Below are positions 1 to 5,421 of a DNA stretch of 33,698 nt, one piece after another (the stretch's first letter is position 1; each line of letters starts with the position of its first letter). The DNA comes from an uncultured Bacilli bacterium (GTDB lineage: Bacteria > Bacillota_I > Bacilli_A > RF39 > UBA660): positions 1 through 33,698 of the forward strand of contig CALVQS010000004.1 of the NCBI GenBank assembly GCA_944358165.1, written 5' to 3'. The translations under genes were made by a program, and so were the position numbers. The notes under the pieces were generated by a model. That model was not told the origin of the DNA and made no database searches. It saw nothing but the letters and a program-made list of their open reading frames with translations.

Positions 1-1529
1 GGATTATTTAAATCAATGGTATCTAAAATAAATACATAACGTTTATTATAAATTGGAATCCAACCAACACTATCACTCTTATTTTCTTCTACTTCATTAT
101 CACTATAGAAAGAATCAGTTGCAATCGTACAATTAGTTAAATCACTACCATTGGCATTACTACATTGATAGCTACCAATTTCCTCCGTTTTATCTTCATC
201 ACTATAAAAATATAATACTCCATCAAAATAACTAATATACTTATATTTTGCACTCATCTTACCATCTAATAAATCAATGGTTTCAGTTCGATCTTTTCCA
301 TCACGAGTAAAAGTAACATCCAAACTATCTTCATTAATCGTAATTTCATAAGCTCTTCTAGTTTCTATAAACTTTTTATCTTCACTATAGACATTTAAAG
401 GATTATAGTAGGTAGAATCAAGATCTACTGCTTCTATATTATATGGATTATTTTGATAATCACGAATATAAAGCAAATCACGATCAATTAATACTGCATA
501 TTCATCTAATAACTCAATATAATCATAAGCATCATCAAATATTAAATTACCATCATAATCATATACATAATATCCATTATTATCTACAACAATATATTTA
601 TTATTATAACTCCGAACTTCATAACGTAATCCACTACTTAAATTTTTACCATTTGTATCATAAATGTAATAGCGATCATTCGTCTTTACCACTAAATTAG
701 AACTACTATTTAATTGCCCAATATAATCATAAGAAAATTCGAAAACTTCTTCTACTCCCTCACTACCAATTTTTATAGCGCCATATCGATTATTATCATT
801 TCTTAAAATAACAAAATCACTATCACTAAAACCTTTAACTAGGGTATAATCTCCAACATTTTCTTGATCTTCAATATTATATAAGAAAACATTCTCACTT
901 TCACTATCTTCATTATCATAAACGAACACATAATTATTCTCATAAATAGCACTTGGTCTTTCAATCAAAGATTCATCTTCATAGACATTTTTCTCACCAT
1001 CAAAATTATCTTCATTGCTATAAGCTGGAACATAACACAAATCTTCTGATTTATGAACACACTCATAAGTACCAATTTCTTCTTCATCATTATTTAAAAA
1101 CACAAGTGTTCCATCACGATAGATATAATTATCTTTTTCAACAATTACTTCTGGCTCATCTGGTTCTACTGGTTTTTCTTCTGGTTTTCTTAAAGCAAAG
1201 AATAAAATGACTCCTACAATAATTAAAAGTAATAAAACAATACTAACAATAATAATGATTTTTTTCTTTTTAGAAAGATTACTCCACTTTTCTTTAAGAC
1301 TTTTCTTCGGTTTCTTTTCTTTTTTCTTTTCTAAAGGCTTAATTTGTTCTTCTCCTTCTTCTTCTTTTTGTGGTTCTACAGCATCATCCCCACTAAGTCC
1401 AAAGGTAAGATCATCCACCATATCTTCTTTACTAATTCCCTCACGATCAATATCATCAATCGGACTAGGTACCTCCATATCTGAAATATCAAACAAATCT
1501 CTAGTCTTTTCTAGATCATCATACTTCAT
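1..1529 (-). CDS. Membrane-anchored extracytoplasmic protein with WG-like repeats (C-terminus cut by window edge)
   Basis: The frame is open from an ATG at 1529 (AGGAG about 8 bases upstream) to the window edge, giving at least 509 residues. Residues 1-90 are acidic then lysine-rich and probably cytoplasmic. A single membrane helix spans about 91-112. The rest should lie outside the membrane. The middle part (about 225-330) has short repeats of the type RYGAIKIG, RYYIYDTNGK and GYYVYDYDG, resembling WG/KWG beta-repeats. A cysteine-containing module EIGTYEC...LC near residue 145 recurs as EIGSYQC...NC near residue 460, so the protein contains an internal duplication. No enzyme motif is visible. 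It is the last minus-strand gene at this edge, with its own promoter and preceded by the rpmF terminator. A role in the cell envelope is inference; the exact function is unknown. Confidence 0.75.
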   Translation of the reverse strand, partial: MKYDDLEKTRDLFDISDMEVPSPIDDIDREGISKEDMVDDLTFGLSGDDAVEPQKEEEGEEQIKPLEKKKEKKPKKSLKEKWSNLSKKKKIIIIVSIVLLLLIIVGVILFFALRKPEEKPVEPDEPEVIVEKDNYIYRDGTLVFLNNDEEEIGTYECVHKSEDLCYVPAYSNEDNFDGEKNVYEDESLIERPSAIYENNYVFVYDNEDSESENVFLYNIEDQENVGDYTLVKGFSDSDFVILRNDNNRYGAIKIGSEGVEEVFEFSYDYIGQLNSSSNLVVKTNDRYYIYDTNGKNLSSGLRYEVRSYNNKYIVVDNNGYYVYDYDGNLIFDDAYDYIELLDEYAVLIDRDLLYIRDYQNNPYNIEAVDLDSTYYNPLNVYSEDKKFIETRRAYEITINEDSLDVTFTRDGKDRTETIDLLDGKMSAKYKYISYFDGVLYFYSDEDKTEEIGSYQCSNANGSDLTNCTIATDSFYSDNEVEENKSDSVGWIPIYNKRYVFILDTIDLNN

Positions 1530-1816: not shown

Positions 1817-2302
1817 TCACTCCTTCCTATCCAAAAGCTCACTCAATTTAGCAAGTCTCGGATCAATTTGTTCTTCTTTATTTTTATCTAGACCCAAACT
1901 CCAACCATCACCAGATAGGTGTGCATCTTCAGTCGCAGTAAATCTCATGGGTACTTCCAGAACAATATTTTCCCACAAAATCTTCATAATATCAAGTATA
2001 TTTTGAGATTTTTGATAATATTCTATGAAATTTTCATCATTTGTGTCTAGTTCTTCCTCAATTTTTGAAGTAAATGGATAGTCTACTGGTTCGGTTGTTA
2101 CACTATCAGGAAGCACCATGATTCCTGTAACCGTTAAATTTACAACCAACATAGATAAAGAATCTAAATAAATACGACCAGTAACATGTAAATCTTTTAA
2201 ATCAAGAATCCCTACACTCTTATAAAGTTCACTACTAATCGTAAAATCTTCATCATACTCTTTTACTTCCCCATTACTTAAAACTGCTAAATTAAGTTCC
2301 AT
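1817..2302 (-). CDS. yceD: YceD/YlbN family protein (DUF177)
   Basis: A 161-residue acidic protein of the DUF177 family, which is almost always encoded directly upstream of rpmF and is linked to 23S rRNA/large-subunit assembly in plants and bacteria; its exact biochemical role is unsettled. Recognition rests on the central motif around VTGRIYLDS, the segment on normal folding of [15 protein letters not shown], the C-terminal [18 protein letters not shown], and position. The ATG at 2302 is preceded by AGGTGGTGAT and is preferred over a start 16 codons upstream, which would be in the promoter. Its promoter overlaps the terminator of the upstream surface-protein gene. In Bacillus the divergent neighbour is ylbM (tmcAL); here that gene lies 2 kb away beyond two inserted genes. 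Confidence 0.88.
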
Positions 2303-2317
2303 AACATCACCACCTAA

Positions 2318-2346
2318 AGTATAGCCCAAACAAAGAAAAAAGACAA
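2318..2346 (-). promoter_or_regulatory. Promoter of yceD-rpmF, embedded in the upstream terminator
   Basis: On the minus strand TTGTCT is followed after exactly 17 bases by TATACT. The -35 box is part of the descending arm of the hairpin that ends the 2357-3580 gene, so terminator and promoter share DNA. Confidence 0.6.
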
Positions 2347-2359
2347 GCAAAACTTGTCA
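2331..2359 (-). terminator. Rho-independent terminator of the C-type-lectin-like gene
   Basis: Minus strand GACAAG, loop TTTTG, CTTGTC, then TTTTTTC. The arm begins inside the TGA stop codon. A hairpin just after a variable region is also a known feature of diversity-generating retroelement targets, so a second role cannot be excluded. Confidence 0.7.
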
Positions 2360-3580
2360 TGACATAGTCAAAGTATATGGACTCAAACTACTTCCATCTC
2401 CCCCAGAAATCGCGATATTAGATTTTAGATAGACAGATGGACGCACGGCACAGCTGCTGCTCGCGCTGCTGCCGAGGACATAGCCAGTGCGGCTCACGAA
2501 AAACACGTTGCTGCTCGTAGAAGAACGAGGAGTTAAAGTCCATTGAGTAGCACTACTATCATATAACCAGTCATTACTTTTACAATAACTATAACTGGAA
2601 CTATCCCAATTATAGAGTTCTTTTGCTAAACAAGACGAGCGATTTGTTGTACTTCCTCCACTTGTTGCATATCCATAATCACTTGGATACATTAATCCTA
2701 TTTTTCCTTCCCATGTTGTTGGTCTTCCACTATATACTGTTGTTCCTCTTTCTCTTTCATAAAACATACTTGCTGTTACACCATTGTTGGTGCTACTTCC
2801 TCCTAATTTCCATGTTACAGTCTCAATCATGTTATTTGTTGCACTGGTTATTCCTTTTCCACTTTCTAAATTAGTTCCACTTAAATAACTTCCATTCAAA
2901 CTTTTTTGTAGACTTGCTGTTGTCCAATCATTTAAAACTCCTGAATCCCATGCAATACCTCCAATACTTTTACTTCTTATTAATTTAACTAACTTTTCAC
3001 CACTCCTACCATGGGTATCTTCACTAAATACTCCAATAATTCTCCATAATTCACATGTATTGCTATTTGGATTATTATAATCATTACAATTAAAATATAC
3101 ATAATTATTTGGATCTACTCCTATATATCTTGCATTACCAGCTTCATCTAATACTACTTCATCTGATGTATTTACTAGGTCTGCTATGACGTCAGATGCT
3201 CCACTTGCTTTTTCAAAATCTAAATAACATTTGGTTCCTTTTGTTGTAAATGGAACTAGGTTTAATGTTTTAGTGGCGCTATCATAAGATAGTTGAATTG
3301 TTGTGTCTTCTTCTCCATCTACTGTACAATAACTAGTATCTAACAAATTATAATTACCATCTGGTATAGTATCACTAGGCTCTCCATCTACTGTAATTGC
3401 TATTATATTTATATCTGCCAAACTATAATTAATCGTCCCATTTACAAGAGGTATACTTTGTGTTACTCGGTACTTTGCTCTTGTAAAATTTAGTATTACT
3501 GCACTAATTATTAGTACTGCTACTACTCCTATTATAATATTTCTTTTTAAATGACTTTTCTTTAATGTTTCGAAATTCAT
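2357..3580 (-). CDS. Membrane-anchored C-type-lectin-like surface protein with GC-rich candidate variable region
   Basis: A 407-residue protein with a short basic N-terminus, one membrane helix (about residues 14-32) and a long extracytoplasmic part, following MNFETLKKSHLKRN. Residues 35-130 look like a small beta domain with Cys pairs. Residues about 150-405 carry spaced Trp, Cys and Gly motifs (NTCELWRIIGVF, MYPSDYGYATSG, SNDWLY, QWTLTPRSS, FFVSRTGYV, CAVRPSVYLKS, GGDGSSLSPYTL) typical of the C-type-lectin-like ligand-binding repeats of gut Firmicutes surface proteins. Codons 355-380 are about 63% GC and rich in NNC codons, unlike the rest of the gene. The start at 3580 has AAAGGATG upstream. 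It has a near-consensus promoter and sits opposite a tandem-HTH regulator gene. Function as a receptor or adhesin is inference. Confidence 0.75.
   Translation of the reverse strand: MNFETLKKSHLKRNIIIGVVAVLIISAVILNFTRAKYRVTQSIPLVNGTINYSLADINIIAITVDGEPSDTIPDGNYNLLDTSYCTVDGEEDTTIQLSYDSATKTLNLVPFTTKGTKCYLDFEKASGASDVIADLVNTSDEVVLDEAGNARYIGVDPNNYVYFNCNDYNNPNSNTCELWRIIGVFSEDTHGRSGEKLVKLIRSKSIGGIAWDSGVLNDWTTASLQKSLNGSYLSGTNLESGKGITSATNNMIETVTWKLGGSSTNNGVTASMFYERERGTTVYSGRPTTWEGKIGLMYPSDYGYATSGGSTTNRSSCLAKELYNWDSSSYSYCKSNDWLYDSSATQWTLTPRSSTSSNVFFVSRTGYVLGSSASSSCAVRPSVYLKSNIAISGGDGSSLSPYTLTMS
2441..2518 (-). other. GC-rich, NNC-codon-rich block: candidate hypervariable region (DGR-like)
   Basis: The 26 codons covering residues 355-380 have 49 G/C of 78 bases, in a gene that is otherwise strongly A/T-rich. 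Sixteen of the 26 codons end in C, with AGC used eight times plus GGC, CGC, CTC, GTC, GCC, TTC and AAC, while neighbouring serines are mainly AGT or TCT. That pattern is what adenine-directed mutagenesis of AAC codons in a template repeat would give. The block sits at the end of a C-type-lectin-like fold, just before VRPSVYLKS. No reverse transcriptase or template repeat is in this window, so the assignment is a hypothesis. Confidence 0.45.
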
Positions 3581-3599
3581 ACTAACATCCTTTCATGAT

Positions 3600-3662
3600 G
3601 CTAGGCTTCATTTTATTTACCATAAAAATAAATTATCATATCCTTATGATGAGTTTCCTAGC
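3600..3662 (-). promoter_or_regulatory. Structured 5' leader of the C-type-lectin-like gene
   Basis: The leader can fold as three helices: a closing stem GCTAGG/CCTAGC (3657-3662 with 3600-3605), an inner ATCAT/ATGAT hairpin (3634-3651), and TTTATTT/AAATAAA (3626-3632 with 3612-3618). I do not recognise a known riboswitch class. The inner hairpin may instead be a protein operator, since the same dyad occurs at the regulator gene. Confidence 0.35.
3634..3651. promoter_or_regulatory. Operator-like inverted repeat, copy 1
   Basis: TATCAT, six bases, ATGATG. It lies just downstream of the predicted start of transcription of the surface-protein gene. The same half sites with the same 6-base spacing occur at 3744-3761, on the regulator side. 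Confidence 0.45.
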
Positions 3663-3672
3663 TTATAGTTAA

Positions 3673-3701
3673 ATTATAAACTTGGGTATACTAAAAGTCA
3701 A
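3673..3701 (-). promoter_or_regulatory. Near-consensus sigmaA promoter of the C-type-lectin-like gene
   Basis: Minus strand TTGACT, 17 bases, TATAAT. The predicted start of transcription is near 3666, leaving a leader of about 85 bases. Confidence 0.8.
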
Positions 3702-3743
3702 GAAAAATATCAATATTATCCTAGTAAAATTTAAAATTAAATT

Positions 3744-3761
3744 TATCATGAGAAAATGATA
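3744..3761. promoter_or_regulatory. Operator-like inverted repeat, copy 2
   Basis: TATCAT, GAGAAA, ATGATA: a perfect 6-6-6 dyad directly before the regulator's start codon. Together with copy 1 it brackets the divergent promoter region, a common arrangement for a regulator controlling itself and its neighbour. Confidence 0.45.
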
Positions 3762-3773
3762 TCGGTGATTAAG

Positions 3774-4229
3774 GTGATTTATGGAGAAAGATTAAAAAAT
3801 TTAAGAGAAGAAAAAGAACTTACCCAAAAAGATATAGCAAAATTATTAGAAATACACTCTGCTACATATAGTCAATTTGAAAGAGAATCAAGTCTTATTC
3901 CTATAAAAAGATTAAATATTTTAGCAAACTTTTTTGATGTATCATTAGATTATTTATTTAATTTCACAAACAATCCAAAATATAATCATAGAAAAAAGGA
4001 ACTTAACTTAGAATTGTCAGGAACAAGATTAAAAGAAATCAGAAAAGAAAATAAAGTAACACAAGTAAAACTTGCAAGCTTTTTTAATACAACCCAATCC
4101 AATATTGTAGGCTATGAAAAAGGAAAATTTATTATAGCAACTCCCTACTTATATATGTTTTGCAAAAAATACAACATTTCTGCTGATTACCTCTTAGGTA
4201 AAATTGATTCACCAAAATATTTAAAATAA
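3774..4229 (+). CDS. Tandem Xre-type helix-turn-helix transcriptional regulator
   Basis: A 151-residue DNA-binding protein made of two Cro/C1-type HTH domains in a row: residues about 3-62 (GERLKNLREEKELTQKDIAK, then YSQFERE and SLDYLF) and 85-145 (GTRLKEIRKENKVTQVKLAS, then NIVGYEKGK and SADYLLGK). No other domain is present, so it should act as a repressor or activator that binds paired sites. I chose the GTG at 3774, giving MIYGERLK, because it has GGTGAT four bases upstream, exactly as in tmcAL; the ATG at 3756 lacks a binding site and lies in the inverted repeat. It is divergent from the surface-protein gene and probably controls it (inference from the two operator-like dyads). A weak AT-rich hairpin follows. 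Confidence 0.8.
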   Translation: MIYGERLKNLREEKELTQKDIAKLLEIHSATYSQFERESSLIPIKRLNILANFFDVSLDYLFNFTNNPKYNHRKKELNLELSGTRLKEIRKENKVTQVKLASFFNTTQSNIVGYEKGKFIIATPYLYMFCKKYNISADYLLGKIDSPKYLK

Positions 4230-4305: not shown

Positions 4306-5421
4306 TTGGAAGCAGTAGGAATTATTTGTGAATATAATCCATTACACAATGGACACATTCATCATATTAAAGAAGTAAAAAAACTTTTTCCAGGAAAATC
4401 TATTATTTTAGTATTAAATGGATATTTCCTAGAACGTGGAGAAATTAGTATATTATCAAAAGAAAATAAAACCAAATTAGCTTTAATTTATGGTGTTGAT
4501 TTAGTTGTAGAACTCCCCTTTATTTTTGGTTCTCAAAGTGCTGATATTTTTGCAGATGCTGCAATTAAAGTATTAGGATATCTTGGCTGTTCTTATCTTG
4601 TTTTTGGAAGTGAATCAAATAATATAGAAGCTCTCCTAAAAGTAGCAGAAATTCAAAATGATCCAAAATATAATGAAAAAGTAAAAGAATTATTAAAAAC
4701 AGGAATGAATTATCCTACTGCTTTATCAAAAGCTTTAAACATGGATATTGATGTTTTTAATCCCAATGACTTACTTGGAATATCTTATATAAAAGCAATA
4801 AAGAAAAACAACTTAAAACTAAAACCCGTAACAATCAAAAGAACCAGTAGCTACCATAACCTAGAAGAAGATGAAAATATCATTAGTGCAAGTAATATTA
4901 GAAATAGATTAAAACAAGGATATGATATTTCTAATTATGTACCAAGAAAAACATTAAAGTTAATTGAAAATATTTCTTTAAATGATTTATTTCCTTTTAT
5001 TAAATATAAAATTTTAACAGACATGGATTTAAGTAAATATTTAACAGTAGATGAAGGAATTGAAAATCGCTTAAAAGAAAAAATAACAGATTCAAATAAT
5101 ATAGAAGAACTAATATTAAATATTAAAACCAAAAGATACACTTATAACAAAATTAGTAGAATGCTAGTCCATATTTTAACAAGCTTACCCAAAGAAATAA
5201 ACAAACTAGCTTCGATTGAATATATTAAAATATTAGGCTTTAACAAAAAAGGAAGAGAATATCTTCATAACTTAAAAGAAGATTTAGAAATATCTTTAAT
5301 CCCAATTCCTAATTCTTTACAATATAAATATGAACTAATCGCTGCTCAAGTTTACAGTTTAATAAGCAAAAATAAAATACTAGCCTACGAAAAAAGCAAT
5401 AAGCCAATCTTTTTTGAATAG
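4306..5421 (+). CDS. tmcAL: tRNA(Met) cytidine acetate ligase
   Basis: A 371-residue protein of the TmcAL (YlbM) family, which uses ATP and acetate to make acetyl-AMP and acetylates C34 of elongator tRNA-Met. The N-terminal nucleotidyltransferase fold is clear: MEAVGIICEYNPLHNGHIHH contains the HxGH-type ATP motif, followed by the conserved LNGYFLERGEISILSKENK. It is slightly shorter than the usual 390-410 residues. The start is a TTG at 4306 with GGTGAT four bases upstream; the in-frame GTG upstream is part of that binding site. The last codons (KSNKPIFFE, stop) and the hairpin after them form one copy of a 44-bp direct repeat whose other copy follows the AAA/TOPRIM-like cassette. In Bacillus this gene is divergent from ylbN-rpmF. 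Confidence 0.92.
   Translation: MEAVGIICEYNPLHNGHIHHIKEVKKLFPGKSIILVLNGYFLERGEISILSKENKTKLALIYGVDLVVELPFIFGSQSADIFADAAIKVLGYLGCSYLVFGSESNNIEALLKVAEIQNDPKYNEKVKELLKTGMNYPTALSKALNMDIDVFNPNDLLGISYIKAIKKNNLKLKPVTIKRTSSYHNLEEDENIISASNIRNRLKQGYDISNYVPRKTLKLIENISLNDLFPFIKYKILTDMDLSKYLTVDEGIENRLKEKITDSNNIEELILNIKTKRYTYNKISRMLVHILTSLPKEINKLASIEYIKILGFNKKGREYLHNLKEDLEISLIPIPNSLQYKYELIAAQVYSLISKNKILAYEKSNKPIFFE

Follow-up and report, generated by a model that had tools for sequence, protein, structure and literature searches.

A GC-rich block in a lectin-like gene of an uncultured gut Bacilli bacterium as a probable variable repeat of a trans-acting diversity-generating retroelement

We have analysed a 33,698-nucleotide stretch of DNA (the window), and its positions 2437-2530 are very probably the variable repeat (VR) of a diversity-generating retroelement (DGR) that acts in trans, has its operon elsewhere in the genome, serves at least five other targets and diversifies a lectin-like protein. 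This reading is based on sequence, namely the relation between VRs and the template repeat (TR) in a sister species, the restriction of changes to adenines, a family of VRs in the same genome, an operon start in that genome and the predicted fold of the protein. We infer that the unassembled part of the operon is complete and active and that cDNA homing occurs.

A GC-rich variable repeat in a lectin-like gene

The original prediction described positions 2441-2518 on the minus strand as a block of 63% GC (49 of 78 bases), in which 16 of the 26 codons end in C and eight are AGC, directly preceding VRPSVYLKS; our recount agrees throughout and places the block in frame. The 354 codons upstream include only 21 C-ending and 3 AGC codons (P = 6×10−12 for C-ending codons against the block, Fisher's exact test), and the GC content is 34% in the target gene and 28% in the window. 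Outside the block region, no stretch of the window has more than 40 G+C per 78 bases; the block has no counterpart elsewhere in the window. Among 100 dinucleotide shuffles of the window, the maximum was 43 G+C per 78 bases compared with the 49 seen, and therefore the block is not a product of chance. Homology to the template spans from 2530 to 2437, which makes the functional unit slightly larger than the block. The features of the gene are as follows.

2357..3580, minus strand: DGR target gene (ORF), 407 amino acids, with an N-terminal membrane helix, a linker domain and a C-type-lectin-like domain
3473..3574, minus strand: N-terminal membrane helix, residues 3-36, probable signal anchor (predicted helix and hydrophobic sequence; membrane role inferred)
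2360..3205, minus strand: predicted C-type-lectin-like domain, residues 126-407 (structure alignment of the model)
2437..2530, minus strand: VR including the 3′ stretch common to the template, GCCGTGCGTCCAT (alignment to the intergenic TR of G012:C18)
2342..2358, minus strand: putative intrinsic terminator hairpin of the target gene, GACAAGTTTTGCTTGTC followed by TTTTTT (sequence)

The GC-rich GCCGTGCGTCCAT is common to the 3′ ends of the TR and of the window VR, where the initiation-of-mutagenic-homing stretch would be positioned. The hairpin at 2342-2358 (GACAAG-TTTTG-CTTGTC on the minus strand) does exist as had been noted, but its proposed link to the DGR does not hold: a run of TTTTTT comes after it on the strand of the gene, and it is best read as an intrinsic terminator rather than a DGR target-site hairpin.

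The C-type-lectin-like tail assumed from the sequence agrees with the fold model of the protein (AlphaFold2, 25 sequences, mean pLDDT 84.5). In VIA-align searches with the C-terminal domain, the N-terminal part of 9qa6 (Thomasclavelia IgA peptidase) reaches a Z of 16.6, the C-terminal domain of Legionella Lcl a Z of 6.7, and many C-type lectins a Z of about 4-5.5 over target residues 161-385, scores that are middling and mutually consistent. The VR codons correspond to residues 351-381 and lie inside this lectin-matched part. A search of NCBIfam with the target protein gave no match, and DUF6273 was matched in Pfam only weakly and below threshold. The model thus predicts a C-type-lectin-like fold carried on an N-terminal membrane helix, and the protein is probably a receptor or adhesin whose specificity changes, for which a surface location and a ligand-binding role are presumed.

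The window is contig C4 of genome G000 (1.218 Mb in 127 contigs, 72.9% complete). Using the 3′ end of the gene as a query against the whole genome, we have identified VR paralogues on C6, C28, C35, C63 and C106, plus a shorter related sequence on C44, so that the genome holds at least six VR-bearing targets including that of the window. Common to these VRs are the flanks TTAACTCCT ... CCATCTRTYTATCTAAAATCTAATATC and a framework of codons that includes GTG, GGC/GGT and GTG-CGY-CCA, between which the NNC or NNT codons differ; Tyr, Asn, Asp, Gly, Val and Arg occur in the paralogues at corresponding variable codons, within an invariant framework. All six frames (C4, C6, C28, C35, C63 and C106) are open and keep their framework codons. 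The VRs of C4, C6, C28 and C35 form one class and those of C63 and C106 another.

Template repeat, retroelement machinery and alternative explanations

A template was inferred with A at the variable columns and searched for in 36 genomes of the genus. Among the new matches, the best is a noncoding, intergenic TR located directly after the stop codon of a DGR-type reverse transcriptase (RT) in G012 (C18), with an Avd-like gene before the RT. Between the window VR and this TR, which belongs to another species of the genus, mismatches occur at 20 of the 34 adenines and at 3 of the 56 other positions (53 of 56 match; P = 2.5×10−8, Fisher's exact test); the adenine-seeded query slightly favours this result, and the match at non-adenine positions and the comparison within G012 are independent of the seeding. 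The window VR lacks one AAC codon of the TR. Pooled over the six VRs of G000, 98 of 198 adenines and 28 of 327 other positions are mismatched. Agreement with this TR is poorer for the VRs of C63 and C106 (10 of 55 and 8 of 55 non-adenine mismatches, respectively), which makes a second template likely. Within G012, the TR of C73 differs from eight VRs at 115 of 256 adenines and at 5 of 440 other positions (P = 6×10−52), and the substituted bases are used about equally (T 44, G 39, C 32). Mismatches restricted to adenines in this manner bear the sequence signature of mutagenic retrohoming.

The DGR machinery is found on other contigs, and none of the ORFs in the 33.7-kb window is an RT. Contig C50 carries a MutS-domain-I-like ORF, a bAvd-like ORF (match to PF22296, E = 1.2×10−5, below the curated cut-off) and a DGR-type RT (RT1), in which FPIGNMTSQ/GLPIGNMTSQ (depending on the frame) and YMDD are recognisable in pieces; RT1 and RT2 of relatives have GLPIGN[LM]TSQ and YMDD. 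PADLOC matches of the RT reflect shared RT-domain similarity, and a defence RT was dismissed on this ground. Contig C106 carries a VR-bearing target gene and a second MutS-domain-I-like ORF (MSL2), and it breaks off 14 codons into Avd2 (MNDFKILKKVKEYI, as in G012). The same order is seen on G012:C73 and continues there with Avd, RT2 and the TR, and therefore RT2 and TR2 of G000 most likely fall in an assembly gap. The TR also adjoins RT2 in relatives (G012 on C18 and C73, G013, G003, G014 and G029). Searches of the 72.9% complete G000 assembly with the inferred TR and with RT2 found neither TR2 nor RT2, the RT2 query finding only RT1. In the 8 kb surrounding RT1 on C50, a scan that let template adenines match any base gave no TR for the VRs. 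The window VR gene is accordingly unlinked to an RT or TR, with the only RT of the assembly on C50 and the start of the second DGR operon on C106. Taken together, the concentration of TR/VR mismatches at adenines, the DGR-type RT locus on C50 and the second operon start on C106 bear out the proposal of a remote VR; the genome search suggested along with it did yield a DGR-type RT locus, but the template with adenine mismatches came only from another species, G012.

Several minor observations concern these loci. The small MutS-domain-I-like ORFs of the DGR operons lie at 2197-2604 (minus strand) in L019 and at 33-281 (minus strand) in L024, and the C50 copy matches PF01624. RT1 (L019 on C50, 764-2102, minus strand) and Avd1 appear to be broken by shifts of a single base within short homopolymers, and the start of MSL2 (L024 on C106), read by eye, has an apparent shift in a short G run. 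These interruptions could be either real decay or assembly error; the G013 copy of RT1, which shares 94% identity with the read-through query, is intact. The closest contig match, L136, was considered as a strain of the window's species and set aside, as its VR is the same as that of the C75 target of G012, to which it belongs. An intergenic TR-like element on C2 was likewise rejected as the template of the window, as it belongs to a separate family (type 1, see below). In IMG/VR, the 3′ flank of the VR had no match and the RTs were only distant.

These findings are best explained by the following mechanism. An operon elsewhere in G000, in the order target gene, MutS-like ORF, Avd, RT and TR, would transcribe the noncoding, AAC-rich TR; a complex of Avd and RT would copy it, placing random bases opposite adenines; and the cDNA would replace the homologous 3′-end stretch in the window gene and in at least five other target genes. 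Template asparagine codons (AAC) would in this way turn into NNC (Ser, Gly, Tyr, Leu, Arg and others), while GTG, GGC, TAT-GTC, GCG and GCC-GTG-CGT-CCA would stay unchanged, and the outcome would be diversification of part of the C-type-lectin-like domain on a membrane-anchored protein.

The main alternative named in the original prediction, import of the block by recombination from a high-GC donor, is suggested by 63% GC in a 28% GC window, but it is refuted by the TR match and retains a very small probability. The G012:C18 TR is only 43% GC and 39% A while the window VR is 61% GC, and G or C replaced 16 of the 20 altered adenines; these changes make up the difference, so that the block arises without any donor. 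Moreover, the flanking and non-adenine positions match the template of the low-GC genus itself. Less probable still is that the tail is simply serine-rich and of low complexity, with a bias in its codon use, and that no DGR is involved: AGC does account for 8 of the 26 codons, but the VR family refutes this explanation, since the corresponding codons of the paralogues, set in the invariant framework, specify Tyr, Asn, Asp, Gly, Val and Arg.

More weight, although it too seems unlikely, is due to the possibility that the VR is a fossil, written by a DGR since lost from the lineage and no longer changing. It would be in keeping with such a loss that the only assembled RT, on C50, apparently has two frameshifts, that the adjoining Avd is interrupted, that MSL2 on C106 has its short G-run shift, and that RT2 and TR2 are not in the G000 assembly. 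However, the apparent shifts fall within short homopolymers and RT1 is unbroken in close relatives, so that they may be assembly errors; the missing RT2 would lie exactly past a contig end of an incomplete assembly; and the open frames and kept framework codons of the six VRs speak against decay. 

Target locus and comparison with known systems

The neighbours of the target gene are the following.

1817..2302, minus strand: yceD/DUF177-like gene, flanking the inserted target-regulator module at one end (ORF, locus comparison)
3756..4229, plus strand: two-repeat XRE/HTH-like regulator, divergent from the target gene (ORF; homologues beside several targets)
4315..5421, plus strand: ylbM (tRNA acetate ligase family), flanking the module at its other end (locus comparison)

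The target-HTH module (2357-4229) is inserted between yceD-rpmF and ylbM. An empty site, with yceD next to ylbM and no insertion, is present in nine genomes of the genus, and a target-HTH module is found at the same site in several relatives with closer ylbM sequences. Its tail at the ylbM locus is a type-1 VR in G003 and is not VR-like in G014, G012 and G006, so the locus offers no orthologous comparison within the same VR class. HTH homologues also adjoin targets on C28, C106 and C44 (degraded) of G000 and in L136-L139 and L142, as well as at the ylbM locus of relatives. The target-HTH pair thus appears to be a module with an exchangeable 3′ end, and the pairing of the HTH regulator with many DGR targets suggests regulated expression of the variable proteins.

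The DGR of Bordetella phage BPP-1 consists of Avd, RT and TR and carries out adenine-specific mutagenesis of a C-type-lectin fold. It acts in cis on one phage gene, whereas here there are at least six chromosomal targets and an extra MutS-domain-I-like ORF; its mechanism has been summarised (PMC12875486). The feature in the window is a genuine remote DGR target, and the mechanism is already known. Remote DGR targets in cyanobacteria (PMC7517822) are similarly dispersed and C-type-lectin-like, with the VR at the 3′ end and TR and RT elsewhere, but they belong to another phylum, and here the target is membrane-anchored and several of the target genes have an HTH regulator next to them. The trans DGRs of Thiohalocapsa PB-PSB1 (PMC10907252) likewise have VRs that match the TR of another locus at all non-adenine sites; their variation was shown in metagenome reads, whereas here it is predicted from the comparison of VR and TR sequences. 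Treponema denticola (PMC4891356) shares the arrangement of a core cassette with remote target genes, and differs in the organism and in the accessory genes; the genome studied here has at least six targets and a second DGR.

With the present case, the organisms that vary several membrane-anchored, lectin-like proteins by means of a single retroelement would include an A/T-rich lineage of uncultured gut Bacilli. Where RT and TR are unassembled or on another contig, a GC-rich NNC block in a low-GC gene can still point to a remote DGR target; a contig-based survey states that it misses such cases (PMC8144416).

Dispersed type-1 elements of the genus as probable templates

An intergenic, AAC-rich template of about 95 nucleotides with a conserved 3′ tail of ~120 nucleotides (ATATCCT...TTGGTTAAGGCTAA...TAGGATACAAGATTA) is present in 32 of the 36 genomes of the genus, ranging from 1 to 25 copies each. 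These type-1 elements often form arrays about 300-345 nucleotides apart (e.g., in G026:C15, G028:C16 and G018:C49). Their tails show compensatory changes in 12 of 16 predicted base pairs, and no Rfam family reaches the cut-off for this TR-RNA tail. Outside the genus, one of about 290 genomes of the family matches, weakly. G000 has at least two coding type-1 VRs and the following elements.

C2:26195-26417, C5:16828-17048, C5:17564-17791 and C47:7897-8124: four type-1 elements (L075, L265, L264)

Type-1 templates, which would belong to the RT1 system, fail to match the VR of the window. The ylbM locus of G003 has a VR (C36, L301) that differs from an intergenic element on C173 (L326) of this genome at 0 of 70 non-adenine positions and at 15 of 32 adenines, with RT1 on C138, apart from both. 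To judge from the aligned sequences, this match is a direct sign of a template acting in trans. The pooled comparisons of VRs and elements in G003 and G017 are strongly adenine-biased, and many VRs are without a near-perfect template among those extracted. Copies of the element across the genus differ at adenine columns by 21% and elsewhere by 7%, an excess that could mean either that the templates themselves are rewritten or simply that framework codons are constrained.

These results make it likely that the genus has a many-template DGR, in which a conserved MSL-Avd-RT1 is served by dispersed stand-alone TR-RNA genes supplying different VRs in trans, and that the window VR is part of another, more conventional DGR. 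Earlier work already describes remote VRs and DGRs with several TRs (PMC7517822, PMC10907252, PMC4891356, PMC6642488); no description of dispersed TR-RNA gene families was found in the non-subscription literature searched, and their novelty is provisional. If these genes are real templates, DGRs can be multi-template and the choice of template by a VR becomes testable. Beside the template element on C2, we further noticed a collagen-like protein with GPTGPTG repeats (L033, 1767-2828, minus strand).
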